Source: Arachis hypogaea
Lineage: Eukaryota > Streptophyta > Magnoliopsida > Fabales > Fabaceae
DNA: 64,000 nt
Direction of reading: 5' to 3'
Assembly: GCF_003086295.3 (NCBI RefSeq)
Contig: NC_092038.1
Span: 105,121,837-105,185,836 of the forward strand
Below the pieces are notes generated by a model that saw only the letters and a program-made list of their open reading frames with translations, had not been told where the DNA came from and ran no database searches. This document shows positions 4,294-58,438 of the stretch, piece after piece (the first letter of the stretch is position 1; each line of letters starts with the position of its first letter). The position numbers and the translations under genes were made by a program.

Positions 4294-5434
4294 GTTCGAG
4301 TATGAACAACTGACGGTTCATCTTGTTGTTCAGATCAGGTAATTTTCTTTTTGTTTTAATTTCAAAAACATTTTTAAAAAAAAAATTCTTTATTTTCGTT
4401 TTTCTAAAGAATATTTTCGAAAAATTTATTAAGAAAATACAAAAAAATCATAAAATCATAAAAATCAAAAATATTTTTTGTTTCTTGTTTGAGTCTTGAG
4501 TCAGTTTTTAAGTTTGGTGTCAATTGCATATTTTAAAAATTATTATGCATTTTTCAAAAAAAATTCCATGCATTCATAGTGTTCTTCATGATCTTCAAGT
4601 TGTTCTTGGTAAATCTTCTTGTTTGATCTTGATGTTTTCTTGTTTTGTGTCTTTTATTGTTTTTCATATGCATTTTTGCATTCATAGTATCCATGCATTA
4701 AAGAATTCTAAGTTTGGTGTCTTGCATGTTTTCTTTGCTTAAAAATTTTTTCAAAAATATGTTCTTGATGTTCATCATGATCTTCAAAGTGTTCTTGGTG
4801 TTCATCTTGACATTCATAGTGTTCTTGCATGCATCATGAGTTTTGATTCATAATTTTCATGTTGTGAGTCATTTTTTTTGTTTTTCTCTCTCATCATTAA
4901 AAATTCAAAAATAAAAAAATATCTTTTATATCATATCTTTTTCAAAAATTTGATTTTAAAATATCTTATCTAACCTCTTATCTTCTTATCTTTTCAAATT
5001 TGATTTTAATATCTTTTTCAACTAACTAATTAACTTTTTGTTTGTTTCTTATCTTTTTCAAAACCACCTAACTACTTCTCCCTCTCTAATTTTCGAAAAT
5101 ATCTCATCTCTTTTTCAAAATTCTTTTTAAATTAATTGATTGTTTTAAATTTTAATTTTAATTCTATCTCATCTTTAATTTTCAAAAATCACTAACTCCT
5201 TTTCAAAATTAATTTTCGAATTCTCTCTCTCATCTTCTTCTATTTATTTATTTATTTACTAACACTTCTCTTCACCTCTCTTCATCTCCAATCACTTCCT
5301 CTATCCTTACCCTTGTGTTTGGATTATTCCTTCTTCTTAATCCTTATCACCTTTCTTCTTCTACTAATAATAAGGATCCTCTTTACTGTGACATAGAGGA
5401 TTCCTCTACCTTTTCTTTTTCTCTTCTCTTTCAT
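4294..5434 (+). other. E1 untranslated leader
   Basis: AT- and pyrimidine-rich leader homologous to 12308-13741 in E2. Carries the recurrent motif TAAGTTTGGTGT at 4509 and 4709, repetitive GTTCTTG/TTCATC text around 4560-4830, and poly-pyrimidine runs before the gag ATG. No credible gene. Confidence 0.7.
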
Positions 5435-7610: not shown

Positions 7611-7773
7611 CTTCTTTCAGTACAGAGTCAAACAGAGCCCCCACAGTCAAACTCTAAGTTTGGTATTGGGAGGCCATAACCAAACTCTAAGTTTGGTGTT
7701 GGGACTATACAATATTGACCTTATCACCTGTGAGGCTCCATGAGAGCCCACTGTCAAGCTATTGACATTAAAG

Positions 7774-8604: not shown

Positions 8605-8641
8605 CTTGCTAGAGGGCGAGCAATATTCTAAGTTTGGTGTG
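8605..8641 (+). promoter_or_regulatory. Hairpin + AAGTTTGGTGT module upstream of ORF3, E1
   Basis: TTGCTAG-AGGG-CGAGCAA (one stem mismatch compared with E2), then TAAGTTTGGTGTGG at 8629-8642. It lies about 40 bases before the ORF3 start and after a pyrimidine tract. Function unknown. Confidence 0.55.
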
Positions 8642-9828: not shown

Positions 9829-10506
9829 GGTGGATTCATTCCTTGTTCTTATTTTCTGTTTTTCATTTTTATCTATGTTTTGTGTCTCTACTTCATGATC
9901 ATTAGTATGTAGTAACTATGTCTTAAAGCTATGAATAAATTCCATAAACCCTTCACCTCTCTTAAATGAAAAATGTTTTTAATCCAAAAGAACAAGAAGT
10001 ATATAAATTTCAAAAATTGTCCTTGAATTTAGTTTAATTATATTGATCTGGTGACAATACTTTCTGTTTTCTGAATGAATGCTTGAACTGTGCATAATTT
10101 TTGATCTTGTTGTTTATGAATGTTAAAATTATTGGCTCTTGAAAGAATGATGAACAAAGAGAAATGCTATTGATAATCTGAAAAATCATGAAATTGATTC
10201 TTGAAGTAAGAAAAAGCAGTGAAAAAGCAAAAGCTTGCGAAAAAAAAAGAAAAAATGGCGAAAAATATAGAAAAAAAAAAAGAAAAAGCAAGCAGAAAAA
10301 GCCAATAGCCCTTAAAACCAAAAGGCAAGGGTAAAAAGGATCCAACGCTTTGAGCATCAATGGATAGGAGGGCCCAAGGAAATAAAATCCAGGCCTAAGC
10401 GGCTAAATCAAGCTGTCCCTAACCATATGCTTGTGGCATGCAGGTCCAAGTGAAAAGCTTGAGACTGAGTGGTTAAAGTCGTGATCCAAAGCAAAAAGAG
10501 TGTGCT
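9829..10506 (+). other. E1 3' non-coding tail, part 1
   Basis: Matches 18162-18839 in E2 (…tggattcattccttgttc… to …aagagtgtgct). Stops at GTGCT (10502-10506), where E2 is inserted; the sequence resumes at 21063 after the second GTGCT. A-rich run near 10240-10300. No gene seen. Confidence 0.8.
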
Positions 10507-12287: not shown

Positions 12288-12307
12288 TGGCGCCGTTGCC
12301 GGGGATT
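12288..12307 (+). other. Primer-binding site (tRNA-Asp type), E2
   Basis: TGGCGCCGTTGCCGGGGATT, perfect complement over at least 19 bases to the 3' end of plant tRNA-Asp, beginning 6 bases after the LTR. Confidence 0.9.
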
Positions 12308-13741
12308 GTTCGAGTATGGACAACTGACGGTTCATCTTGTTGCTCAGATTAGGTAATTTTCTTTTCAAAAATCTTTTTCAAAAATTTTTCTTTTATTTTT
12401 CGTTTTTCCAAAAATATTTTCGAAAAAAAATAATAAAAATACAAAAAAAATCATAAAATCATAAAAACCAAAAATATTTTGTGTTTCTTGTTTGAGTCTT
12501 GAGTCAAATTTTAAGTTTGGTGTCAATTGCATGCTTTTAAAAATTTTTCTTGCATTTTTCGAAAATCTCATGCATTCATAGTGTTCTTCATGATCTTCAA
12601 GTTGTTCTTGACAAGTCTTCTTGTTTGATCTTGATGATTTCTTGTTTTGTGTCTTTTGTTGTTTTTCATGTGCATTTTTGCATTCATATTTTCCATGCAT
12701 TAAAAATTTCTAAGTTTGGTGTCTTGCACGTTTTCTTTGCATCAAAAAATTTTTCAAAATTATGTTCTTGATGTTCATCATGATCTTCAAAGTGTTCTTG
12801 GTGTTCATCTTGACATTCATAGCATTCTTGCATGCATCTTGTGTCTTGATCCAAAATTTTCATGTTTTGGGTCATTTTTGTGTTTTTCTTTAAAATTCAA
12901 AAATCAAAAAATATCTTTTCCTTATTTCCCTCCAAAATTTCGAAATTTTGGGATTGACTTGGTCAAAATTTTTTTTAAAATTAGTTGTTTCTCACAAGTC
13001 AAGTCAAAATTTCAATTTTAAAAATCTTATCTTTTCAAAATCTTTTTCTTATCTTTTTCTTATCTTTTCAAAAAAAAAAAAATTAGCTAACAATTAATGT
13101 GATTGGTTCAAAAATTTGAAGTTTGTTACTTTCTTGTTAAGAAAGGTTCAATCTTTAAGTTCTAGAATCTTATCTTGTAGTTTCTTGTTAGTTAAGTAAT
13201 TTTAAAATTAAATCTTTTTCAAATATCCTTTTTCAAATATATCTTTTTATCTTTTATCTTATCTTTTTCAAAAATTTTATCTTTTTCAAAATTTGATTTC
13301 AAAATATCTTATCTTTTTCTTATCTTCTTATCTTTTTCAAAATTTGATTTCAAATCTTTTTCAATCAACTAACTAACTTTTTGTTTGTTTCTTATCTTTT
13401 TCAAAACAACCTAACTACTTTTCCCTCTCTTATTTTCGAAAATTCTCCCTCTCTTTTTCAAAAATTCTTTTTAATTGTTTTAAATTTTAATTTTAATTAT
13501 CTATTAACTTTAATTTTCGAAAATCACTAACTCTTTTTCAAAAATTAATTTCGAATTTCTCTTCTCTTTTCTTCTTTTATTTAATTAATTAATTACTAAC
13601 ACTTCTCTTCACTTCTCTTCATCCAAACCCGAATCCATCCTTCTTCTTTCTTCTACCTCTTTCTTCTTCTACTAACATAAGGGAATCTCTATACTGTGAC
13701 ATAGAAGATTCCTTTTTTTTTCTTGTTTTCTTCTCTTTCTT
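12308..13741 (+). other. E2 untranslated leader
   Basis: 1.43 kb, AT-rich, with TAAGTTTGGTGT motifs at 12512 and 12711, GTTCTTG-rich repetitive text at 12580-12830, and runs of CTTTTTC/TATCTTTTTC toward gag. Small ORFs in both strands here are low-complexity and differ between elements. I take it as the leader that may contain packaging or translation signals. Confidence 0.7.
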
Positions 13742-16024
13742 ATGAGCAGGAACAAGGATAAAGGCACTCTTGTTGACACTGATCCAGAACCTGAAAGGAC
13801 TCTGAAGAGAAAATTAAGAGAAACTAAATTACAACAATCCAGAAATAACCTTTCAGAAATTTTCGAACAAGAGAAGGAGATGGCAGCCGAAAATAATAAT
13901 AATAATAATGCAAGGAGAATGCTTGGTGACTTCACAAAGCCAACGTCCAAGTTTGATGGAAGAAGCATCTCCATTCCTGCCATTGGAGCCAATAACTTTG
14001 AGCTTAAGCCTCAACTAGTTGCATTAATGCAACAAAACTGCAAGTTTTATGGACTTCCATCTGAAGATCCTTATCAGTTCTTAACTGAGTTCTTGCAGGT
14101 CTGTGATACTGTAAAGACGAATGGAGTTAATCCTGAAGTCTACAAACTCATGCTTTTCCCTTTTGCTGTAAGAGACAGAGCTAGAATATGGTTAGATTCA
14201 CAACCTAAGGATAGCCTGGACTCCTGGGATAAGCTGGTCACTGCCTTCTTAGATAAGTTCTTCCCTCCTCAAAAGCTGAGCAAGCTGAGAGTGGATGTTC
14301 AAACCTTCAAACAAAAAGATGGTGAATCCCTCTATGAAGCTTGGGAAAGATACAAGCAGCTGACCAAGAGATGTCCATCTGACATGTTTTCAGAATGGAC
14401 CCTACTAGATATATTCTATTATGGTCTCTCTGAATTTTCGAAAATGTCACTGGACCATTCTGCAGGTGGATCTATTCACCTGAAGAAAATGCCTAAAGAG
14501 GCTCAAGAACTCATTGACATGGTTGCTAACAACCAGTTCATGTATACCTCTGAGAGGAATTCTGTGAATAATGGGGTCCCTCAGAAGAAAGGAGTTCTTG
14601 AAATTGATGCTCTGAATGCCATATTGGCTCAGAACAAAATGTTGACCCAACAGGTCAACATAATCTCTCAAAATCTGAATGGATTGCAACATGCAGCCAA
14701 CAGTACTAGAGAGGCAGCTTCTGAGGAAGCTTATGATCCTGAGAACCCTGCCATGGCAGAGGTTAATTATCTGGGTGAACCTTATGGAAACACTTATAAC
14801 CCATCATGGAGAAATCATCCAAATTTCTCATGGAAGGATCAACAAAAGCCTCAACAAGGCTTTAACAATGGTGGACGCAATAGGCTAGGCAATAGCAAGC
14901 CATATCCATCATCTTCTCAGCAACAGACAGAGAACTCTGAACAAAATAATTCTAATTTAGCTAATATAGTCTCTGATCTGTCAAAAGCCACTTTCAGTTT
15001 CATGAATGAAACATCCTCCATTAGAAATTTGGAGGCACAAGTAGGCCAGCTGAGTAAGAAAGTTATTGAAACTCCTCTCAGTATTCTCCCAAGTAATACA
15101 GAAGAGAATCCAAAAGGAGAGTGCAAAGCCATTGACTTAGTCAACATGGCCGAATGCACAAAGGAGGAGGAGGACGAAAATCCCAGTGAGGAAGACCTCC
15201 TGGGACATCCTCCAAGCAAGAAGGAGCTTCCTAATAAGGATCCTGAGGAATCTGAGGCTCATACAGAGACCATAGAGATTCCACTAAATCTCCTTCTGCC
15301 ATTCATGAGCTTTGACTATTATTCATCCTCTGAAGAGGATGAAGATGTGACTGGAGAGCAAGTTGCTCAATACTTAGGAGCTATCATGAAGCTGAATGCC
15401 AAGTTATTTGGTAATGAGACTTGGGAGAGTGAACCTCCCATGCTCATTAGTGACTTAGATACTTGGATTCAGGAAACTCTGCCTCAAAAGAAACAAGATC
15501 CTGGCAAGTTCTTAATACCTTGCACCATTGGCACCATGAGCTTTGAAAAAGCTCTATGTGACCTTGGGTCAGGAATAAATCTGATGCCACTCTCTGTGAT
15601 GGAGAAGCTAAGGATCATTGAGGTACAACCTGCATTGTTCTCATTACAATTGGCAGACAAGTCAATGAGACAAGCTTATGGAATAGTAGAGGACGTGCTA
15701 GTAAAAGTTGAAGGCTTTTACATCCCTACTGATTTCATAATCCTAGATACTAGGAAGGAAGATGATGAATGCATCATCCTAGGAAGACCTTTCCTAGCCA
15801 CAGCAGAAGCTGTGATAGATGTCAACAGAGGAGAGTTAGTCCTTCAACTGAATGGGGAATACCTTGTGTTTCAAGCACATGGCCATCCCTCTGTGACAAA
15901 AGAGAGTAAGCATGAAGAGCTTCTCTCAGTTCAAGGTCAAGAAGAGCCCACACAGTCAAACTCTAAGTTTGGTGTTGTGAGGCCACAACCAAACTCTAAG
16001 TTTGGTGTGGAGACAACACACTAA
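13742..16024 (+). CDS. Gag-protease polyprotein of non-autonomous element E2
   Basis: Intact 760-aa ORF; the ATG follows a pyrimidine-rich stretch and matches the start in M1, E1 and E3. Residues 1-70 are charged and Asn-rich. Residues ~75-250 form the retrotransposon Gag domain (LMLFPFAVRDRARIWLDSQP, FFPPQKLSKLRVDVQTFKQ, SLYEAWERYKQL). Residues ~330-430 are Asn/Gln/Ser-rich. Residues ~590-720 are a retropepsin-like aspartic protease with [11 protein letters not shown] as the active-site region (DLG instead of DSG, as in Athila-type elements) and IILGRPFLAT. No CCHC zinc knuckle and no RT follow. The last residues contain NSKFGV twice, encoded by the AAGTTTGGTGT motif. Gag would assemble particles and the protease would process them. 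The intact frame agrees with the low LTR divergence. Confidence 0.9.
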   Translation: MSRNKDKGTLVDTDPEPERTLKRKLRETKLQQSRNNLSEIFEQEKEMAAENNNNNNARRMLGDFTKPTSKFDGRSISIPAIGANNFELKPQLVALMQQNCKFYGLPSEDPYQFLTEFLQVCDTVKTNGVNPEVYKLMLFPFAVRDRARIWLDSQPKDSLDSWDKLVTAFLDKFFPPQKLSKLRVDVQTFKQKDGESLYEAWERYKQLTKRCPSDMFSEWTLLDIFYYGLSEFSKMSLDHSAGGSIHLKKMPKEAQELIDMVANNQFMYTSERNSVNNGVPQKKGVLEIDALNAILAQNKMLTQQVNIISQNLNGLQHAANSTREAASEEAYDPENPAMAEVNYLGEPYGNTYNPSWRNHPNFSWKDQQKPQQGFNNGGRNRLGNSKPYPSSSQQQTENSEQNNSNLANIVSDLSKATFSFMNETSSIRNLEAQVGQLSKKVIETPLSILPSNTEENPKGECKAIDLVNMAECTKEEEDENPSEEDLLGHPPSKKELPNKDPEESEAHTETIEIPLNLLLPFMSFDYYSSSEEDEDVTGEQVAQYLGAIMKLNAKLFGNETWESEPPMLISDLDTWIQETLPQKKQDPGKFLIPCTIGTMSFEKALCDLGSGINLMPLSVMEKLRIIEVQPALFSLQLADKSMRQAYGIVEDVLVKVEGFYIPTDFIILDTRKEDDECIILGRPFLATAEAVIDVNRGELVLQLNGEYLVFQAHGHPSVTKESKHEELLSVQGQEEPTQSNSKFGVVRPQPNSKFGVETTH

Positions 16025-16082
16025 ATTGACCTGATCATCTTGTGGCTCCATGAGAGCCACTGTCAAGCTATTGACATTAAAG

Positions 16083-16107
16083 AAGCGCTTGTTGGGAGGC
16101 AACCCAA
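16083..16107 (+). other. Conserved AAGCGCTT hairpin element, E2
   Basis: AAGCGCTT (16083-16090), a perfect 8-bp palindrome, then TTGGG-AGGCAA-CCCAA, a 5-bp stem with 6-base loop. In E4 the outer stem pair is C-G (CTGGG-AGGCAA-CCCAG) and in E1 one pair becomes G-U, so pairing is kept while bases change. Confidence 0.7.
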
Positions 16108-16258
16108 TTTTATTTATCTAATTTTATTTTATTTTGTTTCTTTGTTATTTTTGTGTTTAATTAGGTACATGATCATGATGAGTCAAGAAAAAATCAAAAA
16201 AATTAAAAACAGAGTCAAAAACAGAAGAAAAAAATTTTCACCCTGGAGGACGCACGGG

Positions 16259-16500
16259 CTGGCGTTCAACGCCCAGAAGATGCATCTGGCTGGCGTTCAA
16301 CGCCAGAACAGAGCATCTTTCTGGCGCTGAACGCCCAAAACAAGCTACATCCTGGCGTTTAACGCCAGGATGCGCACACAGAGGGCAATCTGGCGCTGAA
16401 CGCCAGAAACAAGCTTGAAACTGGCGTTCAACGCCAGAAACAAACATCACATGGGCGTTTAACGCCCAGAACATGCACCAATGGGCATTTGAACGCCAGA
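16259..16500. repeat. Palindromic minisatellite, E2
   Basis: Eight copies of palindromes of the type CTGGCGTTCAACGCCAG or CTGGCGCTGAACGCCAG, spaced roughly 30 bases apart, in the gag-ORF3 spacer. Confidence 0.88.
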
Positions 16501-16946
16501 ATGGTGCATGAAGGCAATTTACATGCCTATATGGTGAAGGAATGGTATTTCTTTTCACCTCAGGATCTGTGGACCCTACAGGATCCCCACCTACCTTTTC
16601 TTTTAAATCCTAATCACACTCTCCTAATCCAAATCTCATTTTCAATGTCACACCTCCCAAAAACCTTCACCAATCACCTCAACCCCTCTTCCTAATTTCC
16701 CCATGCACCATTCACATCAACCTCCTCTTCCCCATAAACCCCACCTACCCTCATCAAATCCAAATTCAATTTCCCACCCTTTCCCACCCAAATTGGCCGA
16801 AACCTAACCCTCCCCCCTCCCTATAAATACCTCTCCTTTCTTCTTCATTTTCACACAACACTACCCATTCTTCTCTCATATAGCCGAACCCACTTCTCTC
16901 CCCCTCTTCCACATTCTTTTCTTCTTCTACTACTCTTCTTTTCTTT

Positions 16947-16984
16947 TTTGCTCGAGGACGAGCAAAATTTTAAGTTTGGTGTGG
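16947..16984 (+). promoter_or_regulatory. Hairpin + AAGTTTGGTGT module upstream of ORF3, E2
   Basis: TTTGCTCGAGGACGAGCAAA (16947-16966) is a perfect 8-bp stem with AGGA loop, followed by TAAGTTTGGTGTGG. It lies 37 bases before the ORF3 ATG and follows a long pyrimidine tract, a context compatible with a 3' splice site. The same architecture, with a covarying stem base pair, immediately precedes the 3' LTR (19219-19255). Confidence 0.6.
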
Positions 16985-17021
16985 TAAAAAGCCTAAGCTT
17001 TTTATTTTTCATTCACCATCA

Positions 17022-18161
17022 ATGGCACCCAAGACCGGAGTTTCCTCAAGAAAAGGAAAAGGGAAGGCAAAAGCTTCCACTTCCGAATCATGGGAAAAGG
17101 AGAGATTCATCTCCAAGAGCCACCAAGACCACTTCTATGATGTTGTGGCAAAGAAGAGGGTGATCCCTGAGGTCCCCTTCAAGCTCAAAAAGAATGAGTA
17201 TCCGGAAATCCGACATGAGATCCAAAGAAGAGGGTGGGAAGTCATAACCAACCCCATGCAACAAGTCGGAATATTGATGGTTCAAGAGTTCTATGCTAAT
17301 GCATGGATCACTAGGAACCATGATCAAAGTATGAACCCGAATCCAAAGAACTATATCACAATGGTTCGGGGGAAATACTTAGATTTCAGTCCGGAAAATG
17401 TGAGGTTGGCGTTTCATCTACCCATGATGCAAGGTGATGAACGCCCCTATACAAGAAGGGTCAACTTCAATCAAAGGTTGGACCAAGTCCTAATGGACAT
17501 TTGTGTGGAAGGCGCCCAATGGAGAGTAGACTCCAAAGGCAAACCAGTCCAACTAAGAAGACTGGACCTCAAGCCTGTAGCTAGAGGATGGTTGGAGTTC
17601 ATCCAAAGATCCATCATCCCTACAAGCAACCGATCTGAAGTTACTGTGGATCGGGCCATCATGATTCATAGCATCATGATTGGAGAGGAAGTAGAGGTTC
17701 ATGAAGTCATCTCTAATGAACTCTACAAAATAGCTGATAAGCCTTCATACATGGCACGGCTAGCCTTCCCCCACCTCATATGCCATCTATGTTATTCAGC
17801 CGGAGTCATCATAGATGGAGATGTCTCCATTGAAGAAGACAAACCCATCACCAAGAAAAAGATGGAGCAAACAAGAGAAGTTCCTCACGGCCCTCAAGAA
17901 GAACATGAGGAAGTTTATCATCAACAAATGCCTCAAGGAATGCACTTTCCTCCCAACAACTATTGGGAGCAACTTAGTACCTCTTTGGAAGACTTGAGTC
18001 ATAATGTTGAACAACTAAGGGTGGAACACCATGAACACGCCCTCACTCTCCAAGAAATAAGAGAAGATCAAAGAGCAATGAGGGAGGAGCAACAAAGGCA
18101 AGGAAGGGACATAGAAGAGTTGAAGAACATCATTGGTCCTTCAAGAAGAAGACGCCACTAA
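17022..18161 (+). CDS. ORF3 protein of E2 (unknown function, coiled-coil C-terminus)
   Basis: Intact 379-aa ORF. N-terminus MAPKTGVSSRKGKGKAKAST is basic and Ser-rich. Residues ~30-230 form a conserved core (VIPEVPFKLKKNEYPEI, GWEVITNPMQQVGILMVQEF, PMMQGDERPYTRRVNF, RLDLKPVARGWLEFIQRSII, PTSNRSEVTVDRAIMIHSI) that I associate with the Pfam-type 'putative plant transposon protein' family. Residues ~320-370 are Glu/Gln-rich with heptad spacing, suggesting a coiled coil, and the tail IGPSRRRRH is basic. I see no signal peptide, membrane helix or furin-like site, so an envelope role is not supported. Homologues occupy the same slot in E1, E3 and the autonomous E4. It may act in the nucleus or bind nucleic acid; that is inference. 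Confidence 0.85.
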   Translation: MAPKTGVSSRKGKGKAKASTSESWEKERFISKSHQDHFYDVVAKKRVIPEVPFKLKKNEYPEIRHEIQRRGWEVITNPMQQVGILMVQEFYANAWITRNHDQSMNPNPKNYITMVRGKYLDFSPENVRLAFHLPMMQGDERPYTRRVNFNQRLDQVLMDICVEGAQWRVDSKGKPVQLRRLDLKPVARGWLEFIQRSIIPTSNRSEVTVDRAIMIHSIMIGEEVEVHEVISNELYKIADKPSYMARLAFPHLICHLCYSAGVIIDGDVSIEEDKPITKKKMEQTREVPHGPQEEHEEVYHQQMPQGMHFPPNNYWEQLSTSLEDLSHNVEQLRVEHHEHALTLQEIREDQRAMREEQQRQGRDIEELKNIIGPSRRRRH

Positions 18162-19218
18162 AGGTGGATTCATTCCTTGTTCTTTATTTTCTTTCTGTTC
18201 TCGGTTTTTAATACTATGATTATTTATGTTTTGTGTCTTTACTTCATGATCATTAGTATGTAACCATGCCTTAAAGATTATGAATAATTCCATGAATCCT
18301 TCACCTCTCTTAAAAGAAAAATGTTTTAATTCAAAAGAACAAGAAGTACATAATTTTCGAAATTATTAGTGAATTTAATTTAATTATATTGATGTGGTGG
18401 CAATAATTTTTGTTTTCTGAATGAATGCTTGAACAGTGCATATTTTTGATCTTGTTGTTTATGAATGTTAAAATTGTTGGCTCTTGAAAGAATGATGAAC
18501 AAAGAGAAATGTTATTGATGAACTGAAAAATTCATGAATTGATTCTTGAAGCAAGAAAAAGCAGTGAAAAAGCAAAAGCTTGTGCGAAAAAAAAAATGGC
18601 AAAAAAAAAATAGAAAGAAAATGCAAGCAGAAAAAGCCAATAGCCCTTAAAACCAAAAGGCAAGGGTAGCAAGGATCCAAGGCTTTGAGCATCAATGGAT
18701 AGGAGGGCCCAAGGAAATAAAATCCAGGCCTAAGCGGCTAAATCAAGCTGTCCCTAACCATGTGCTTGTGTCATGAAGGTCCAAGTGAAAAGCTTGAGAC
18801 TGAGTGGTTAAAGTCGTGATCCAAAGCTAAAGAGTGTGCTTAAGAGCTCTGGACACCACTAACTGGGGACTTTAGCAAAGCTGAGTCACAATCTGAAAAG
18901 GTTCACCCAGTTATGTGTCTGTGGCATTTGTGTATCCGGTGGTAATACTGGAAGACAAAGTGCTTAGGGCCACAGCCAAGACTCATAAGTAGCTGTGTTC
19001 AAGAATCAACATGCCTAAACTAGGAAAGTCAATAACACTATCTGAAATTCTAAGTTCCTAGAGAAGCCAATCACTCTGAACTACAAAGGAAAAAGTGAGA
19101 TGCCAAAACTGTTCAGAAGCAAAAAGCTACAAGTCCCGCTCATGTAATTAAATTAATATTCATTGATATTTTGGACTTTATAGTATATTCTCTTCTTTTT
19201 ATCCTATTTGATTTTCAG
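18162..19218 (+). other. E2 3' non-coding tail
   Basis: About 1.06 kb between ORF3 and the PPT module, conserved in E1 and (minus) E3 and E4: conserved text around 18300-18550, an A-rich run near 18590-18620, and a block agtgtgcttaagagctctgg at 18832-18851. No ORF of note. Confidence 0.75.
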
Positions 19219-19255
19219 TTGCTTGGGGACAAGCAACAATTTAAGTTTGGTGTTG
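19219..19255 (+). promoter_or_regulatory. 3'-LTR-proximal hairpin and PPT-equivalent, E2
   Basis: TTGCTTGGGGACAAGCAA (19219-19236) is a perfect 7-bp stem with a GGGA (GNRA-type) loop, followed by TTAAGTTTGGTGTTG ending directly at the 3' LTR. This is the position of the plus-strand primer (polypurine tract). The only purine run is GGGGA in the hairpin, so where priming occurs is unclear. Identical arrangement in E1, E3 and E4. Confidence 0.65.
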
Positions 19256-21057
19256 TGATGAGCGGATAATTTATACGCTTTTTGGCATTGTTTTCATATA
19301 GTTTTTAGTAAGTTTAAGCTACTTTTAGGGATGTTTTCATTAGTTTTTATGTTAAATTCACATTTCTGGACTTTACTATGAGTTTGTGTGTTTTTCTCTG
19401 ATTTCAGGTAAATTCTGACTGAAATTGAGGGATTTGAGCAAAACTCTGAAGAAGGCTGACAAAAGGACTGCTGATGCTGTTGGAATCTGACCTCCCTGCA
19501 CTCGAAATGGATTTTCTAGAGCTACAGAACTCCAATTGGCGCGCTCTCAATGGCGTTGGAAAGTAGACATCCAGGGCTTTCCAGCAATATATAATAGTCC
19601 ATACTTTATTCGAAGAATGACGACGTAACTTGGCGTTAAACGCCAAGTACACGCTGCTGTCTGGAGTTAAACGCCAGAAAAACGTCATGATCCGGAGTTA
19701 AACGCCCAAAACACGTCATAACTCAAAGTTTAACGCCAAGAAATGCCTTAGCTCGTGGAATGATCAAGCTCAGCCCAAGCATACACTAAGTGGGCCCCGG
19801 AAGTGGATTTATGCATCAATTACTTACTCATGTAAACCCTAGTAGCTAGTCTAGTATATATAGGACATTTATCTATTGTATTAGGCATCTTTGATCTCAG
19901 TTTTGTTTTATTCTTCATCTTAGGAGATCATTGATCACGTTAGAGAGGGCTGGCCATTCGGCCATGCCTGAACTCTTTGCTTATGTATTTTCAACGGTGG
20001 AGTTTCTGCACACCATAGATTAAGGGTGTGGAGCTCTGCTGTACCTCAAGTATTAATGAAGTTCTATTATCTTTTATTCAATTCTCTCTTATTCTTATTC
20101 CAAGATATTCATTCGTACCCAAGAACATGATGAATGTGATGAGTCAGATTACCCTCATTATTATTCTCACTTATGAATGTGAGTGATTGACAACCACTCC
20201 CGTTCTACATGCAACAGAGCTTGAATGTGTATCTCTTAGATTCCCCAACAGAATCTTCGTGGTATAAGCTAGATAGATGGCGGCATTTATGAGGATCCGA
20301 AAAGTCTCACCTTGTCTGTGGTATTCCGAGTAGGATCCTGGGAATCCGAAAAGTCCAACCTTGTCTGTGGTGTTCCGAGTAGGATTCCGGTAATGAATGA
20401 CCGTGACGTGCTTCAAACTTTAACCTGCTGGGCATTAGTGACAGACGCAAAAGAGGGATTCTATTCCAGTAGGAGCGGGAACCAACCGGTGATTAGCCGT
20501 ACTGTGACAGAGTGCGTTAGCATAGTTTTCACTGCGAGGATGGGATGTAGCCATCAGCCATGGGTGATGCCTCCAGACTGGTTAGCTGTGCGAGTGACAG
20601 CCGCACAGGATATTTCCCCGTGAGGAATGAAAGTAGCCACAGTTGATGGTGAACCCCTATACAAAGCTTGCCATGGAAAGGAGTAAGAAGGATTGAGTAG
20701 AAGCAGTAGGAGGGCAGGCGTCCGAGAGCTCTACAGCATCTCCATCCGCTTATCTGAAATTCCCACCAATGAATCTGCATAAGTGTTCTATCCCTTTTAT
20801 TATTTCTTCTTTTTATTATTAATTATTCGAAAACCCATAAACCATTTTTAATCTGCCTAACTGAGATTTGCAAGGTGACCATAGCTTGCTTCATACCAAC
20901 AATCTCTGTGGATTCGACCCTTACTCACGTAAGGTTTATTACTTGGACGACCCAGTACACTTGCTGGTTAGTTGAACGGAGTTGTGAAAATAAACAATGC
21001 CCTCAGAGTATACATCCTACAAGTAAAAAGAACAAGTGATCACAATTTCGTCCACCA
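19256..21057 (+). repeat. E2 3' LTR
   Basis: 1802 bp, TGATGAGCGGATAATTTATACGC... to ...TTCGTCCACCA. TATA-like box at 19855-19864, AACGCC palindromes at 19629-19740. Followed by the target duplication GTGCT. ORFs of 80-103 aa inside it also occur in the 5' LTR and are not genes. Confidence 0.93.
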
Positions 21058-21062
21058 GTGCT

Positions 21063-21479
21063 TAAAATCTCTGGACACCTCTAACTGGGGACTTTAGCAA
21101 AGCTGAGTCACAATCTGAAAAGGTTCACCCAGCTATGTGTTTGTGGCATTTATGTATCTGGTGGTAATACTGGAAAACAAAGTGCTTAGGGCCACGGCCA
21201 AAACTCATAAAAGTAGTTGTGTTCAAGAATCAACATACTTAACTAGGAGAATCAATAACACTATCCGAAATTCTAAGTTCCTAGAGAAGCCAATCATTCT
21301 GAACTTCAAAGGAAAAAGTGAGATGCCAAAACTGTTCAGAAGCAAAAAGCTACAAGTTCCGCTGATCTAATTAGAACTAATATTCATTTATATTTTGGAA
21401 TTTATAGTATATTCACTTCTTTTTATCCTAATTGATTTTCAATTGCTTGGGGACAAGCAACAATTTAAGTTTGGTGTTG
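21063..21479 (+). other. E1 3' tail, part 2, with PPT module
   Basis: Resumes the E1 interior after E2 (…cttaaaatctctggacacctctaactgggg…), matching 18840-19255 of E2. The hairpin TTGCTTGGGGACAAGCAA is at 21443-21460 and TTAAGTTTGGTGTTG runs to the LTR at 21480. Confidence 0.85.
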
Positions 21480-34010: not shown

Positions 34011-34047
34011 CAACACCAAACTTAAATTGTTGCTTGTCCCCAAGCAA
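34011..34047 (-). promoter_or_regulatory. 3'-LTR-proximal hairpin and PPT-equivalent, E3
   Basis: On the minus strand TTGCTTGGGGACAAGCAA (34047-34030), then TTTAAGTTTGGTGTTG running to the LTR. Identical to E1 and E2. Confidence 0.65.
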
Positions 34048-36249: not shown

Positions 36250-36287
36250 CACACTAAACTTAGAAGGTTTGCTCGTCCTCGAGCAAA
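36250..36287 (-). promoter_or_regulatory. Hairpin + AAGTTTAGTGT module upstream of ORF3, E3
   Basis: On the minus strand TTTGCTCGAGGACGAGCAAA (36287-36268), the same 8-bp stem as E2, then CTAAGTTTAGTGTGG. Lies about 40 bases before the former ORF3 start. Confidence 0.6.
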
Positions 36288-37054: not shown

Positions 37055-37267
37055 CTTTAATGTCAGTAGCTTGACAGTGGGCCCTCATGGAGCCTCACAG
37101 ATGTTCAGAGCAATGTTGGAACCTCCCAAACTTAGAGTTTGAATGTGGGGATTCAACACCAAACTTAAAATTTGGTTGTGGCCTCCCAACACCAAACTTA
37201 AAGTTTGACTGTGGGGGCTCTGTTTGACTCTGTTTTGAGAGAAGCTCTTCATGCTTCCTCTCCATGG

Positions 37268-39426: not shown

Positions 39427-41016
39427 ATGAAAGAGAAGAGAACAAGAAAATATGGAATCCTCTATGTCACAGTATAGAGATTCCTTGAGATGTCAGAGGA
39501 AAAGAATAATAGAAGGAGGAAGTAGAAGAAGAAGAATTCAAACTTATCAAGAGAGATAGACTTCGAATTGTTGATAGTGGAGGAGTGTTAGTCCTTAAAT
39601 AGAAGGATGTGAGAAGAGGAGAAGAATTTTCGAAAATAAATTAAAAGATTTTGAAGAAATTTTGAAAAATTGAAGAATGATTTTTGAAAATTAAAGTTGG
39701 GAAAGAAACAAAGTGATTTTTGAAAAAGATTTTGAAATTAGAAATAAAAAAGATTGAAAATTATTTGGAAAAAGATGTGATTAAGAAGATATGATTGAAG
39801 AGTTATGGTTTTGAAAAGATATGATTGAAAAGATATGATTGAGAAACAATTTAAAAAGATTTGATTTTTAAAATTAATGACTTGGCTAACAAGAAATTTA
39901 AAGGATATAATTCAAACATTAAACCTTTCTTAACAGAAAAGGCAACATACTTGAAATGTTGAATCAAATCATTAATTGTAGGCAAGTATTTTTGAGAATG
40001 GAAAGAAATTGATTTTGAAAAATTATGAAAACTTGAAAAAAATTTGAATTAAAAACAAAATCTTCCCTCTTATGCCATTCTGGCGTTAAACGCCTAGAAT
40101 GATGAAAAAAATTTGAATTAAAAACAAAATTTTCCCTCTTGTGCCATCCTGGTGTTAAACGCCCAGAATGGTATCCATTCTGACATTTAACGCCCAAAAT
40201 GCTACCCTTTTGGGCGTTAAATGCCTAGCCAGGTACCCTGGCTGGCGTTTAAACGCCAGTTTTCCTTCCTCACTGGGCATTTTGAACGCCCAGCTTTTTC
40301 TGTGTAATTCCTCTGCTGCCTGTTTTGAATCTTCAATTCTCTATATTATTGACTTGAAAAGACACAAATTAAAAATTTTTTTGAATTTTTAATGATGAGG
40401 AATAATCAAAATGCAACTAAAATCAAATAAACAATGCATGCAAGACACCAAACTTAGAAGTTTGTATACTATTGACACTAACAAATTGAGAATGCATATG
40501 AGAAACAACAAAAAACTCAAGACAACAGAATTTAAAGATCAGAGTAAGGAAATCATCAAGAACAACTTGAAGATCAATGAAGAATATAATGCATGTAATT
40601 TTCGAAAATTAGAAGACTAAAAACATGCAATGTACACCAAACTTAAAATTAGACACTAGACTCAAACAAGAAACATAAAATATTTTTTATTTTAAGATTT
40701 TATAAATTTTTTTTTTGGTCTTTTCAAAAATTATTGGGAAAAGAAAAATAAGGATTTCAAAATTCTTAATGAGAATTTCCAGGAATCATGCAATGTTAGT
40801 CTAAAGCTTTAGTCAAAAAAGATCAGACATGGCTAGCCAAGTTTCAGCAGGACATTACATTCAAGAGCTAAATTGATGAGAATCAATCAGCTTTGGTGAT
40901 GATGAAAACATCATCTGAAACTCTAGAATTCATTCTTAAGAACTCTGAAGAACAAAATAAAATAAAATAACCTAATCTAAACAACAAGATGAACCGTCAG
41001 TTGTCCAAACTCGAAC
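39427..41016 (-). other. E3 untranslated leader
   Basis: 1.6-kb leader, A-rich on the plus strand, with the ACACCAAACTTA motif at about 40446 and 40634. A second palindrome cluster lies at 40079-40299 (about six GGCGTTAAACGCC-like copies), which E2's leader does not have. Confidence 0.7.
40079..40299. repeat. Palindromic minisatellite in E3 leader
   Basis: Copies such as CTGGCGTTAAACGCCTAG and TGGGCGTTAAATGCCTAG, plus a duplicated stretch gaaaaaaatttgaattaaaaac (40034-40125). Same palindrome type as in LTRs and spacers. Confidence 0.75.
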
Positions 41017-50003: not shown

Positions 50004-50040
50004 CAACACCAAACTTAAATTGTTGCTTGTCCCCAAGCAA
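50004..50040 (-). promoter_or_regulatory. 3'-LTR-proximal hairpin and PPT-equivalent, E4
   Basis: Minus strand TTGCTTGGGGACAAGCAA (50040-50023), then TTTAAGTTTGGTGTTG adjoining the LTR, identical to E1, E2 and E3 although the rest of the interior differs. Confidence 0.65.
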
Positions 50041-52089: not shown

Positions 52090-52128
52090 AGCACACCAAA
52101 CTTAGAGGTTTGCTTGTCCTCAAGTAAA
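52090..52128 (-). promoter_or_regulatory. Hairpin + AAGTTTGGTGT module upstream of ORF3, E4
   Basis: Minus strand TTTACTTGAGGACAAGCAAA (52128-52109; one A/C mismatch), then CTCTAAGTTTGGTGTGC. The stem carries T-A where E2 and E3 carry C-G. Confidence 0.6.
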
Positions 52129-52922: not shown

Positions 52923-55667
52923 TCACTCAAGTCTCAGTTTTGAGCATTCCTGCTCAAAATTGCCTTCAAGATAATGCTTGATTCTCTGTCCATTAACAAT
53001 GAACCTTTTGTCAGAATCAGTATCCTGAAGCTCAACATATCCATATGGTGACACTCCTGTAATCACATACGGACCCCTCCACCGGGATTTGAGTTTTCTT
53101 GGAAACAATTTGAGCCTAGAGTTGAAGAGTAGAACTTTTTGTCCTGGCTCAAAGACTCTGGTTGACAACTTCTTGTCATGCCATTTCTTTGCCTTTTCCT
53201 TATAAATTTTTGCATTTTCAAAGGCATTGAGTCTGAACTCCTCTAGCTCATTTAGCTGGAGCAATCTTTTTTCACCAGCTAACTGAGCATCCATGTTTAG
53301 GAATCCGGTTGCCCAGTAGACTTTATGTTCCAGTTCCACGGGCAGATGACAGGCCTTCCCATACACCAGTTGGTATGGAGAGGTTCCTATAGGAGTCTTG
53401 AATGCTGTTCTGTATGCCCACAGAGCATCATCCAAGCTCTTTGCCCAATCCTTTCTTCGGGCTATCACAGTCCGTTCCAGGATTCTTTTTAGCTCTCTGT
53501 TAGAGACTTCAGCTTGCCCATTTGTCTGTGGATGATATGGAGTTGCCACTTTGTGGCTAATTCCATATCTAACCATAGCAGAGTATAGCTGTCTATTGCA
53601 GAAATGAGTGCCCCCGTCACTGATTAGTACTCTGGGAACACCAGACCTGCTGAAGATGTGTTTCTGGAGGAATTTCAGCACGGTCTTGGTATCATTAGTG
53701 GGTGTAGCAATTGCTTCTACCCACTTAGATACATAGTCCACTGCCACCAGAATGTAAGTGTTTGAGTATGATGGTGGGAATGGACCCATGAAGTCAATTC
53801 CCCATACATCAAACAATTCTATCTCTAATATCCCTTGTTGAGGCATGGCATATCCGTGAGGCATGTTACCAGCTCTTTGGCAACTGTCACATTTACGCAC
53901 AAACTCTCGGGAATCTTTATAGAGAGTAGGCCAGTAGAAGCCACATTGGAGGACTTTAGTGGCTGTTCGCTCACTTCCAAAATGTCCTCCATACTGTGAT
54001 CCATGGCAGTGCCATAGGATCCTTTGTGCTTCTTCTCTGGGTACACATCTGTGGATCATTCCGTCTGCACATCTCTTAAAGAGATATGGCTCATCCCAGA
54101 GGTAGTACTTAGCATCTGAAATTAATTTCTTTCTTTGCATTCTGCTGTACTCCTGGGGTATGAATCTTACAGCTTTATCGTTTGCAATATCTGCAAACCA
54201 TGGAGCTTCCTGAATGGCAAAGAGTTGCTCATCTGGGAAGGTCTCAGAGATCTCAGTAGAAGGGAGGGACGCCCCAGCTACTGGTTCTATTCGGGACAGA
54301 TGATCAGCTACTTGGTTCTCTGTCCCTTTTCTGTCTCTTATTTCTATATCAAACTCTTGCAGAAGCAACACCCATCTTATGAGTCTGGGTTTTAAATCCT
54401 GCTTTGCGAGTAAGTATTTAAGAGCAGCATGGTCAGTGTACACAACCACTTTGGATCCCACTAGATAGGATCTAAACTTGTCAATGGCATAGACCACTGC
54501 AAGTAACTCTTTTTCTGTGGTTGTGTAATTCTTCTGTGCGTCATTTAGAATACGGCTGGCATAATAAATGACGTGCAGAAGCTTGTTATGCCTCTGTCCC
54601 AACACTGCATCAATGGCATGGTCACTGGCATCACACATTAGTTCAAATGGCAATGTCCAATCTGGTGCAGAGATGACTGGTGCTGTGACCAGCTTAGCTT
54701 TCAGGGTCTCAAATGCCTGCAGACACTGTGTGTCAAACACAAATGGTGTGTCAGCAGCTAGCAGGTTACTCAAAGGTTTTGCAATTTTCGAAAAATCCTT
54801 TATAAACCTTCTGTAGAACCCTGCATGCCCCAGAAAGCTTCTGATTGCCTTAACATTGGCAGGTGGTGGTAATTTTTCAATTACCTCTACCTTTGCCTTA
54901 TCCACCTCTATTCCCTTACTTGAAATTTTGTGCTCAAGGACAATTCCTTCAGTCACCATAAAGTGACATTTCTCCCAGTTTAAAACCAGGTTAGTCTCTT
55001 GGCATCTTTTCAGGACAAGTGCTAGGTGATTAAGACAGGAGCTGAATGAGTCTCCATATACTGAGAAGTCATCCATGAAGACTTCCAAAAATTTCTCTAC
55101 CATATCTGAGAAGATAGAGAGCATGCACCTCTGAAAGGTTGCAGGTGCATTGCACAGACCAAAAGGCATCCTTCTGTAGGCAAACACGCCAGATGGGCAA
55201 GTAAATGCTGTTTTCTCTTGGTCCTGAGGGTCTACTGCAATTTGGTTGTAGCCTGAATAGCCATCCAAAAAGCAATAATAATCATGACCAGCTAATCTTT
55301 CTAGCATTTGGTCTATGAATGGTAAAGGAAAATGATCCTTTCTAGTGGCTGTATTGAGCCTTCTGTAGTCAATACACATACGCCACCCTGTGACTATTCT
55401 TGTAGGAACCAGTTCATTTTTTTCATTATGAACCACTGTCATGCCTCCCTTTTTGGGGACAACTTGGACAGTGCTCACCCAAGGGCTATCAGAAATAGGA
55501 TAAATAATCCCAGCCTCTAGTAATTTAGTGACCTCTTTCTGCACCACCTCCTTCATGGCTGGATTTAGCCTCTTCTGTGGTTGAACCACTGGTTTGGCAT
55601 TATCCTCCAACAGGATCTTGTGCATGCATCTAGCTGGGCTAATGCCCTTAAGATCACTTATGGATCA
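52923..55667 (-). pseudogene. E4 pol: RT, RNase H, integrase (upstream stop)
   Basis: Open for 900 codons from Met at 55625, but separated from protease by TGA (55667-55665) where the frame calls for Trp (…TALG-stop-SISDLKG…). From that Met: RT with YRRLN (~88) and FMDD (183-186). RNase H with CDASD (331-335), TEKELLAV (~370), [10 protein letters not shown] (~396) and ADHLSR (~440). Integrase zinc finger (HC..H ~539-548, C579/C582), catalytic D611, D670 and E706 ([21 protein letters not shown]), and a C-terminal [16 protein letters not shown] domain. No chromodomain. LGHK-type Gly is Glu (~231) and a Gly before AVLGQ is Asp (~339), both fitting G-to-A decay. The product would copy and integrate element DNA; this copy is probably dead. 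Confidence 0.92.
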
Positions 55668-57904
55668 CCCAAGAGCTGTCTTGTGTGTCCTTAGCAATTG
55701 AATCAGTGCTTCCTCTTCCTGTGGATTTAAAGCAGAGCTTATAATCACTGGAAAAGTGTCACCCTCTCCCAGAAATGCATATTTCAGGGATGGTGGTAAT
55801 GGTTTGAGTTCAGGTTTGGGAGGCTTATCCTCCTCCTGAGGAATTTTCGAAAATTCCTTTGTTTCCACTGATTCTTCTTGATCAGGTTGAGCATCTTTGA
55901 AGATGTCCTCAAGCTCTGATTCTAGGCTTTCAGTCATATTGATCTCTTCTACCAGAGAGTCAATAATGTCAGCGCCCATGCAGTCATTTGGTGTGTCTGG
56001 ATGCTGCATAGCTTTTACAGCATTCAACTTGAACTCATCCTCATTGACTCTCAGGGTTACTTCCCCTCTCTGTACATCAATGAGAGTTCGTCCAGTTGCT
56101 AGGAAAGGTCTTCCTAGAATGAGAGTTGCACTCTTGTGCTCCTCCATTTCCAGCACCACAAAGTCAGTTGGAAAGGCGAATGGCCCAACCTTGACAATCA
56201 TATCCTCTATTATGCCTGATGGATATTTAATGGAGCCATCAGCAAGTTGGAGGCATATCCGGGTTGGTTTGACTTCTCCAGTCAACCCAAGCTTTCTGAT
56301 AGTGGATGCAGGTATTAGATTGATGCTTGCTCCAAGATCACATCGGGCTGTCTTGGTGCAAGCACCTTCTAATGTGCATGGTATCATAAAGCTTCCTGGA
56401 TCTTGAAGCTTTTCTGGTAAGCTTTTTAGAATGACTGCACTGCATTCTTCAGTGAGAAACACTTTTTCAGTTTCTCTCCAATCCTTCTTATGACTTAAGA
56501 TTTCTTTCATAAACTTAGCATAAGAAGGTATTTGCTCAAGTGCCTCTGCAAACGGAATCTTTATTTCAAGAGTCCTTAGATAGTCTGCAAAGCGGGCAAA
56601 TTGCTTATCCTGTTCCGCTTGGCGGAGTTTTTGAGGATAAGGCATCTTGGCTTTATATTCTTCAACCTTAGATGCTGCAGGTTTATTCCTTGCAGCGGTG
56701 GTTGAAGAAGCCTTGTTAGAGGGATTACTGTCAGCACTCTCAGGTGTCTGATCCTCCCTTGGCATCTGAACGCCAGGATTGGGTGGAAAATGGGCGTTTA
56801 ACGCCAACTTTTCCCCCTTTTCTGGCGTTTGAACGCCAGAACTGGGCAAGGAATGGGCGTTTAACGCCAACTTTCCTTCCCTCTCTGGCATTTGAACGCC
56901 AAAAGTATTCCTCTCTGGGCTCTTACTGTCCTCAGAGGGATTTTGAACAGTGGGTTGGTTATCCTCTGTCAATTGTTCCTTATTTGGCCTTTTGCTCTTT
57001 TGAGCAGTGTTATTCAGTGTCTTCCCACTCCTCAGTTGAACTGCTTGACATTCCTCTGTTATCTGTTTAGATATTTGTTGTTTTGCTTGATTCAACTGCA
57101 GTTCTATGTTCTTGTTAGCAACTTTAGTTTCATGGAGCATCTCTTTAAATTCTGCTAACTGTTCTGTCATCAGGAGCAATTGTTGATTAAGCTCAATCAT
57201 CTGTTCTTGAGGATTAGGATCAGTGACTACTGTCATGACTTCCTCTTTTGGAGAGAACTCATTGCTAGAGTACAAATATTGATTTCTAGCAACAGTGTCT
57301 ATAAGCTCTTGAGCCTCTTCAATTGTCTTCCTCATGTGGATAGATCCACCAGCTGAGTGGTCTAAAGACATCTGAGCCTTTTCTGTGAGCCCGTAGTAGA
57401 AGACATTTCAGAGGGGCATTTTCTTAGCATACCTCTATACCTCTCCCAGGCATTATAAAGGGATTCATTATCCTCTTGTTTAAAGCCTTGGATGTCCAGC
57501 CTTAGCTGTGTCATCCTCTTTGGAGGGTAAAAGTGATTCAGGAATTTGTCTGATAACTGTTTCCATGTCTTTATGCTTGCTGTAGGTTGGTTATTCAACC
57601 ACCTCTTAGCTTGATCTTTTACAGCAAATGGAAACAGTAATAGTCTGTAGACATCCTGATCCACCTCTTTATCATGTACTGTGTCAACAATTTGTAAGAA
57701 CTGTGCCAGAAACTCAGTAGGCTCTTCCTGTGGAAGACCGGAATACTGGCAATTTTGCTGCACTATGATAATGAGTTGAGGATTTAGCTCAAAGCTGCTT
57801 GCTTTGATGGGAGGTGTACAAATGCTACTCCCATATGCAGCTGTAATGGGGTTAGCATATGACCCCAGAGTCCTTCTGGATTGATCAATCCCACTTAGGT
57901 CCAT
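55665..57904 (-). pseudogene. E4 gag-protease (frameshifted by small deletion)
   Basis: Starts MDLSGIDQSRRTLGSYANPI at 57904, a different Gag type from E1-E3. The Gag domain (YRLLLFPFAVKDQAKRWLNN, FYPPKRMTQLRLDIQGFKQE, SLYNAWERYRGMLRKCPSEM) is followed near 57405 by loss of roughly eight codons and of the frame. The other frame resumes at [15 protein letters not shown] (57371). Further on are coiled-coil-like Gln-rich text, a Pro/Lys repeat region encoded by palindromes (56905-56758), a charged KMPYPQKLRQAEQDKQFARF segment, and a retropepsin-like domain with CDLGASINLIP and LILGRPFLATGRTLIDV. It ends at the TGA before pol. No CCHC knuckle is seen. Confidence 0.88.
56758..56905. repeat. Palindromic repeats inside E4 gag coding sequence
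   Basis: At least five GGCGTTTGAACGCC / GGCGTTTAACGCC units, the same as in the non-coding spacer, in frame. They yield peptide repeats FGVQMPE, KLALNAHSLPSSGVQTPE and KLALNAHFPPNPGVQMPR. Spacing about 60 bp per pair. Confidence 0.85.
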
Positions 57905-58438
57905 AATGGATAAAGGGAAATGATATGGATTCTCAAGCAAAGTATATTTTTTTTGAATTAAACGAAAAAATAAAATAAAATAAAATAAAATAAAATAAAA
58001 TAAAGATTTGAAAATTAAAAAGAAAATAAAATCAAAGTAAATTGAGAACTGAATCAATTAGTCAATTAAAAAGATTTTGAAAATAGCAATTAAAAAGATA
58101 TGATTGAAAAATTTTTATGAAAAAGATTTGATTTTTTGAAATGAGGAAAGAGAAAAACAACAAAATGACACCAAACTTAAAATTTTTAGAAAATCAAACA
58201 CTAATTTTCGAAAATTTTTAAGGGAAAAACACAAGAGGACACCAAACCTAGAATTTTTAAAGATCAAAAAGAGACTAAGGACATGCAAATTCGAGAAACT
58301 AAAAAAAAAACAAAAGCATGCAATTGACACCAAACTTAAAATATGAAACCAGACTCAACTAAAAGACTCTAAACCAACAAAAATAAAACAGTCCTAATCT
58401 AAGCAACAAGATAAGCCGTCAGTTGTCCAAACTCGAAC
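57905..58438 (-). other. E4 untranslated leader with (TAAAA)n tract
   Basis: 0.53 kb, A-rich on the plus strand, with a (TAAAA)-type microsatellite at 57971-58004 and ACACCAAACTTA-type motifs at about 58168, 58239 and 58331. The open frame extending upstream of 57904 is hydrophobic low-complexity and probably untranslated. Confidence 0.7.

Follow-up and report, generated by a model that had tools for sequence, protein, structure and literature searches.

The window analysed here, a 64,000-nucleotide (nt) stretch of the Arachis hypogaea genome (C3:105121837-105185836; assembly of 2.557 Gb), is occupied by nested Ty3/gypsy retrotransposons whose long terminal repeats (LTRs) start with TGATGAGCGG. 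Four elements, E1 to E4, are distinguished (Table 1). The open reading frames (ORFs) of E4 match PF03732, PF13650, RVT_1, RT_RNaseH and rve in that order, which is the gag/pol order of gypsy-type elements. With the E4 pol protein as the tblastn query, the only pol match in the window is E4 itself, and none is found in E1-E3. ORF3 was detected by tblastn in all four elements; E1, E2 and E4 were scanned for PF20167, and in E4 the ORF3 with this domain lies downstream of pol. We infer that ORF3 is the env-like ORF of the Athila lineage. Rfam returned no match at gathering score in the window.

These elements share a 12-mer, TAAGTTTGGTGT (hereafter M), usually with T or C directly before it. The window contains 24 exact copies; with up to two mismatches there are 33, against 7.88 expected, and none of 100 shuffles reaches that number. 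At a threshold of one mismatch, E1, E2 and E3 have six sites each and E4 has five. The sites are of four types: in the leader, at the 3' end of gag-protease (in the pol-less E1-E3), before ORF3, and at the 3' LTR; a hairpin stands beside M at the last two types only. At the same threshold, M is absent from the four 3' LTRs tested, from the protease-pol stretch of E4 (4,449 nt) and, within E2, from ORF3 and from positions 13742-15900, 16025-16900 and 18162-19200. An earlier note on this DNA had described the hairpin and motif as a module duplicated in every element. Both places are indeed present in E1-E4, but with 24 exact copies M is not simply duplicated. Both E2 modules were located correctly apart from small shifts (to 16946-16982 and 19218-19253), and the second does not abut the 3' LTR as had been stated, M ending 2 nt before it.

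In the eight hairpin copies of E1-E4, M starts 5-6 nt past a 7-bp core stem and is exact in seven, the exception being the pre-ORF3 copy of E3, which reads TAAGTTTAGTGT. The inverted repeat, said earlier to be perfect, is so in six of the eight; the pre-ORF3 copies of E1 and E4 each carry a mismatch (A.G and A.C), so that the E4 stem is TTACTTG/CAAGCAA and not TTGCTTG as reported. In a larger set of 51 copies, collected with no pairing filter and excluding loci L001-L008 (which overlap L009-L016), at least seven consecutive pairs are formed in 45, namely 21 of 25 before ORF3 and 24 of 26 at the 3' LTR. On C1:1-10.4 Mb, exact M follows 21 of 22 hairpins of the T-A type (after 4-5 nt) and eight of ten of the C-G type (after 6 nt), and these 29 hairpin-linked copies are among the 100 M matches listed. 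RNA folding, suggested earlier as a check, supports both E2 hairpins (z -2.51 and -2.87) and the 3' hairpin of L131 (z -2.20), but not the 3' hairpin of L130 (z -0.88) or the pre-ORF3 hairpin of L131 (z -0.20). The tandem pair of M at the gag end of E2 (71 nt) folds at -27.4 (z -3.15). In one locus, L026, the hairpin that immediately precedes the 3' M (oriented position 9480) has an apparent LTR end in place of its 5' arm, and it looks as if another element had inserted into the hairpin loop.

Table 1. Features of the four elements, with positions counted from the first letter of the window.
Feature	Position	Strand	Remark
E2 primer-binding site (PBS-like), minus-strand synthesis	12288..12305	+	6 nt after 5' LTR
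E2 leader M copy 1	12512..12523	+	
E2 leader M copy 2	12711..12722	+	
E2 gag-protease ORF, 760 aa, PF03732	13742..16024	+	protease-like stretch read by eye; no reverse transcriptase
E2 gag-end M tandem copy 1	15964..15975	+	in frame, SNSKFGV
E2 gag-end M tandem copy 2	15997..16008	+	33 bp further
TATA box of putative ORF3 promoter, E2	16822..16828	+	149 nt upstream of M
E2 pre-ORF3 hairpin, 9-bp stem, loop AGGA	16946..16967	+	-10.9 kcal/mol, z -2.51
E2 M before ORF3	16971..16982	+	
E2 ORF3, 379 aa, PF20167	17022..18161	+	
E2 3' LTR hairpin, 8-bp stem, loop GGGA	19218..19237	+	-12.1 kcal/mol, z -2.87
E2 M at 3' LTR, putative plus-strand primer core	19242..19253	+	2 nt before LTR
E2 3' LTR, TGATGAGCGG ... 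CCACCA	19256..21057	+	no M inside
E1 leader M copy 1	4509..4520	+	
E1 leader M copy 2	4709..4720	+	
E1 gag-end M tandem	7655..7699	+	7655 (one mismatch), 7688
E1 pre-ORF3 hairpin and M	8606..8640	+	one A.G mismatch, TTGCTAG/CGAGCAA
E1 3' hairpin and M	21443..21477	+	
E3 3' hairpin and M	34013..34047	-	
E3 pre-ORF3 hairpin (8-bp stem) and M	36251..36287	-	M with one mismatch
E3 gag-end M tandem	37156..37200	-	37200, 37167
E3 leader, two M	40445..40645	-	40645, 40456, at both ends of stretch
E4 3' hairpin and M	50006..50040	-	
E4 pre-ORF3 hairpin and M	52093..52127	-	one A.C mismatch, TTACTTG/CAAGCAA
E4 protease, reverse transcriptase, RNase H, integrase ORFs	52923..57371	-	no M inside, at most one mismatch
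E4 leader, three M	58168..58338	-	58338, 58250 (one mismatch), 58179
Leader M in element fragments	1899, 1700, 1411, 1213	-	

Across the whole genome, exact M occurs 349,887 times, compared to 1,087 for a reversed control, which corresponds to about one copy per 7 kb of the 2.56-Gb genome; at 40,968 places it is followed by TGTGATGAG. Copy number per element was examined in 20 fetched 10-kb stretches (L009-L028), every one chosen for an exact 3' M. The main element has 3-7 M sites in most of these loci, more if a second element is included, with 1-3 copies spaced 33 bp apart at the gag-protease end. Three copies lie in the leader of L023 and four in that of L025 (two with one mismatch); in the remaining 18 loci the leader has two copies in ten, one in one, and none within the stretch in seven. 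Exact M is in the sense orientation in 110 of 114 cases, and the four antisense copies all belong to L018 and L019, overlapping loci with two elements facing opposite ways. Antisense M with one mismatch is found at a like place in L017 and L020, about 240 nt past the pre-ORF3 M, and also in L019. Two exact copies about 0.5 kb apart face opposite ways in L141, probably as pieces of two elements.

The motif is conserved well above its surroundings. When sites were located by anchors outside M, and those within five mismatches of M were kept and compared with ungapped flanks (two choices that both favour the contrast), the mean pairwise difference per column was 0.046 in M versus 0.39-0.54 in the flank blocks at leader site 1 (n = 18 of 20 anchored sites), 0.000 versus 0.32-0.52 at leader site 2 (n = 15, by a looser anchor), and 0.025 versus 0.26-0.30 before ORF3 in pol-less elements (n = 19 of 22 anchored sites for this place), where the block just downstream of M, containing the anchor, differs by 0.11-0.13. 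Before ORF3 in pol-bearing elements the values are 0.000 and 0.00-0.18, from a set (n = 3) too small to say much. A search with M masked at the 3' site recovers exact M in 93 of 100 among the matches listed (33,331 match in all), and its requirement for exact flanks favours young copies.

Such a short, nearly invariant sequence, common to several families and dispersed mostly in non-coding parts, could be a site for an element-encoded or host DNA-binding protein, for example an anti-silencing factor such as the VANC proteins of VANDAL transposons. Exact M keeps to one orientation, however, and the four 3' LTRs tested, the expected location of regulatory sites, contain no copy; we regard this role as most improbable. 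A coding constraint alone was rejected as well: at the gag end M is in frame and encodes SNSKFGV, but the identical letters occur in the non-coding leader, pre-ORF3 and 3' sites. The C terminus of the E2 gag-protease consists of 11-amino-acid repeats (SNSKFGVVRPQP...) that are in frame with M.

The stem of the hairpin varies, from which the earlier note concluded that pairing is under selection. This was examined with 30 distinct hairpins from several families, a set without L010 (short hairpin) and the 3' copies of L025 and L026 (the latter broken). Because entry required at least six of eight positions to be paired, the paired percentage is raised; it amounts to 93.3% of 240 cells, as compared to 29-53% in slid versions. 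The classing used for this set labelled 16 gag-end sites 'hairpin_internal', which are not the same hairpin. The covariation score is 0.205 versus 0.114 (standard deviation 0.015) for shuffled sets, none of 500 being as high. Two-sided changes occur at two of the eight pairs (U-A, G-C and C-G at the outer pair, U-A and C-G at pair 9-16) and G-U variants at two further pairs, while the outer pair fails in ten of the 30 hairpins. Neither the number of double-change pairs nor that of pair types exceeds the shuffles (497 and 451 of 500). Genome-wide, the stem TTGCTTG/CAAGCAA is found 63,045 times and TTGCTCG/CGAGCAA 14,738 times, with 810 T.G and 798 C.A intermediates. The two intermediates are about equally numerous though only T.G pairs, indicating neutral decay of inserted copies. 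The strong stem association is thus that of two inherited states plus neutral decay, and the support for pairing comes from few events among master copies, not from hundreds of independent ones; the covariation that was claimed exists, on a narrower footing.

The equal frequency of T.G and C.A also speaks for another explanation, that the internal copies are functionless relics of replication errors (mis-primed or template-switched complementary DNA). So does the likeness between the 3' unit and the one before ORF3, which agree over about 35 nt as they would after a duplication. Relics would hardly have left M nearly invariant at the leader and pre-ORF3 sites while the flanks diverged, and compensated stem changes do exist. 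This explanation appears quite unlikely.

Every LTR element has its plus-strand primer region immediately before the 3' LTR, and what the families have in common there is M and the hairpin. M stands only 2 nt from the 3' LTR and therefore most likely forms the core of the plus-strand primer in this Athila-lineage Ty3/gypsy group, an argument from position only. At the 3' LTR, M would be spared by RNase H and prime plus-strand DNA, and the hairpin, which ends about 5 nt upstream, would mark or expose it. The hairpin-M unit repeated before ORF3 would correspond to the 'extra' polypurine tract (PPT) of Athila4 and Calypso, which is reportedly to be credited to Wright and Voytas (2002). The copies of M without a hairpin, those of the leader and of the 3' terminus of gag-protease, would let plus-strand synthesis start at several places at once. 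Pol-less families would be copied by the reverse transcriptase and RNase H of pol-bearing families, such that one shared recognised sequence keeps the copies alike. Taken as a whole, with M as primer core, internal copies that prime, and trans-mobilisation that keeps them alike, this reading is nearly an even call that tips slightly towards doubt. Among the three roles proposed in the earlier note, a second plus-strand priming site is the best supported and stands in part, as the 3' M is at the primer place and the internal copy is letter-identical to it. A U-box preceding the PPT is important in several systems (PMC10085805), and M too usually follows a T or C. That about six identical non-purine primers, from just behind the primer-binding site (PBS) to the 3' LTR, build the second strand in segments, and that the same code serves as a cis-signal for pol-bearing copying of pol-less families, is a proposal we regard as doubtful; such a shared cis-signal would explain how a 12-mer reached ~350,000 copies.

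Several observations weigh against M as a primer. Only six of its 12 letters are purines, so that it is not a polypurine tract, whereas PPTs are nearly all-purine, a departure described in PMC3185511 being a single pyrimidine. Close to the 3' LTR, a purine-rich stretch was seen only in the loop and 3' arm of the hairpin (GGGGACAAGCAACAA, 12 purines of 15); it ends 16 nt short of the LTR, and the primer might extend beyond M or be located in this arm. For leader copies just downstream of the PBS, no primer precedent was found in the literature examined. The RNA context of M also varies by site (beside a hairpin, within a CCAAACU/AGUUUGG stem, or neither), and no downstream letters are common to all sites, TTGCATG being common to the two leader sites.

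The purine-rich 3' arm of the hairpin lowers our rating of the primer reading and raises that of a different one, in which M is an RNA-binding site for Gag. M would then be a dispersed packaging signal by which pol-less elements enter the particles of others, its clusters in the leader and gag providing multivalent binding. The leader copies are clustered, two to four in many elements, with unlike flanks (L025, and L136 if that is a leader), and exact M is strictly sense; the family B loci L131, L133 and L142 have one leader M each. A regex search found no CCHC knuckle in E2 gag, and another mode of RNA choice is therefore conceivable. Packaging does not, on the other hand, require a site 2 nt from the 3' LTR, and M lies in a predicted stem at the gag end and is free elsewhere. 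We consider a Gag site unlikely, though to be taken seriously.

The region upstream of ORF3 has a feature of its own. A strict TATA box is present in 19 of 29 distinct pre-ORF3 regions, versus 0.81 expected from first-order Markov sequences; its distance to M is 137-153 nt in 18 of the regions and 102 nt in L023. A pyrimidine-rich tract lies between the box and M, with like places in E1, E3 and many of L009-L028. Judged from these sequence features, an internal promoter for ORF3 is likely in family A, as a matter separate from M. They could also mean that the pre-ORF3 hairpin and M form a 5' untranslated or splice element controlling ORF3 expression, akin to the splice or subgenomic RNA signal proposed earlier. 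However, ten of the 29 regions have no strict box (L131, L133, L137, L140, L017 and L020, and, with box-like variants, L132, L019, L025 and E4). In L017, L020, L131, L133 and L137 the internal hairpin and M are kept with no match to E2 ORF3 at 1e-5, so that 'pre-ORF3' denotes a place and not always a gene. M is also found where no gene comes next, as at the 3' LTR, and the leader and gag copies are equally left without explanation; control of ORF3 thus seems very unlikely as the role of the unit. In L017 and L020, gag is followed by the hairpin and M with neither a TATA box before nor an ORF3 match after, and the stretch between the internal and the 3' M may hold another gene or a deletion.

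The same arrangement is found beyond the TGATGAGCGG elements. Families with the LTR starts TGATGCGTGAGC, TGATGCCAAGG and TGATGACAAG carry M, TG and TGATG in succession at their 3' end. These loci were chosen for holding M, and their LTR starts were deduced from the TGATG after it: TGATGC[GA]TGAG in L131, L133, L137 and L141, TGATGCCAAGG in L130 and TGATGACAAG in L143. The hairpin and M precede the LTR in all six alike. The gag of L131 is 45-54% identical to that of E2 in three main matches, and the ORF3 of L130 is 35% identical to E2 ORF3. Pol is present in L133. In L130 only the end of pol is weakly matched (33% over ~80 amino acids, E 4e-6; not recovered at 1e-5 in a larger set), with three M past this match, upstream of ORF3. 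Among L009-L028, tblastn finds no pol in 17 of 20, full matches in two and a piece of 30 amino acids in one. The sharing of M by pol-bearing and pol-less families fits trans-mobilisation.

More distant relatives were sought by the letters of the PBS, which gave four viral-contig matches and 97 genome-contig stretches, 80 of them taken as loci L033-L112. In these loci and the four viral ones, gag and pol occur together by tblastn only in L087. No relative of E4 pol was detected among the viral contigs; L030, a viral contig, has a pol match of only 67 amino acids (E 4e-4). L087, on a contig of 5,605 bases assigned to Blastococcus endophyticus, has the PBS, a gag match of 28-40% and a pol match of 58.8% identity, and represents a distant Athila-like element, probably plant DNA contaminating a bacterial endophyte assembly. 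About 200 nt after its pol (integrase) match, at the place of the linker, stands CTAAGTTGGGGGGAG, a purine-rich, G-rich look-alike of M. This single sequence suggests that M may descend from a purine-rich primer.

An internal primer copy before an env-like ORF has precedent. The earlier note knew of nothing comparable described for Athila-type retrotransposons, but PMC2829016 reports one extra PPT in Athila4 and Calypso, in the linker between pol and env. The lineage type and the second primer copy upstream of the env-like ORF are alike; unlike that extra PPT as cited, M is no polypurine tract, is accompanied by a hairpin in both positions, and has further copies in the leader and at the end of gag-protease. 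The same source gives 3-5 PPTs per element for Sireviruses (Ty1/copia), and by its logic there, internal copies that are letter-identical to the terminal one are PPTs. In E1-E4, M takes the place of the terminal primer next to the 3' LTR (by position only), and its internal copies are letter-identical. Sireviruses, in that account, resemble the present elements in having several identical primer copies and an inverted repeat tied to the terminal one. Sirevirus copies, however, belong to the linker and are seldom found outside it (0.3 per element), while those of M extend to the leader and gag. The inverted repeat of Sireviruses is missing from their upstream PPTs, and its right arm lies within the LTR, whereas the whole peanut hairpin stands upstream of M and occurs a second time before ORF3. 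In HIV-1 and Ty1, as cited there, internal PPTs are likewise second plus-strand starts, but lie in a coding domain; M is absent from the protease-pol stretch of E4, and its gag-end copies are in frame.

Pol-less families have also been described. In Arabidopsis, as far as the accessible text of PMC2410132 goes, pol-less Athila families keep gag and the env-like ORF, as do the peanut elements, and are mobilised at least partly in trans; the term PPT is absent from that text and no shared cis motif was seen in it. The open-licence literature searched yielded no report of leader or gag copies, of a hairpin accompanying the internal copy, or of a motif common to pol-bearing and pol-less families, and among the matches listed for the letters of M and close spellings no title concerned retrotransposons. 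The new part is thus the wider set of M copies and its sharing between families.

Should M act as a primer, non-purine priming at many sites, the leader included, would be a property of plant gypsy elements and would widen the definition of a plus-strand primer; it would also supply a testable cis-rule to predict which pol-less elements can be mobilised. PMC2829016 terms it unclear what multiple PPTs do in plus-strand synthesis, and the M system would offer a case in which this can be tested. Whatever its role, a 12-mer with this number of exact copies gives a precise means of detecting these elements and putting them in order.

Two further candidates were considered for M. A second PBS or a tRNA piece was rejected, since only the last six letters are PBS-like and the next letters vary between sites, as judged by eye; the PBS of E2 is presumably of the tRNA-Asp type, by analogy with Diaspora and Calypso. 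Pairing of M with the U5/PBS junction (cyclisation) was set aside, though not disproved: in a duplex scan of E2 the top windows were at 16291 and 16422 (-12.7 kcal/mol), which pair with the flank of the 3' site as well as with M. At 10441-10540, the 5' LTR of E2 is without its normal TGATGAGCGG start. Between gag-protease and ORF3, E2 also contains a 17-nt inverted repeat, CTGGCGTTCAACGCCAG, with 8-bp arms around one central base, which occurs twice (16290-16306 and 16421-16437).

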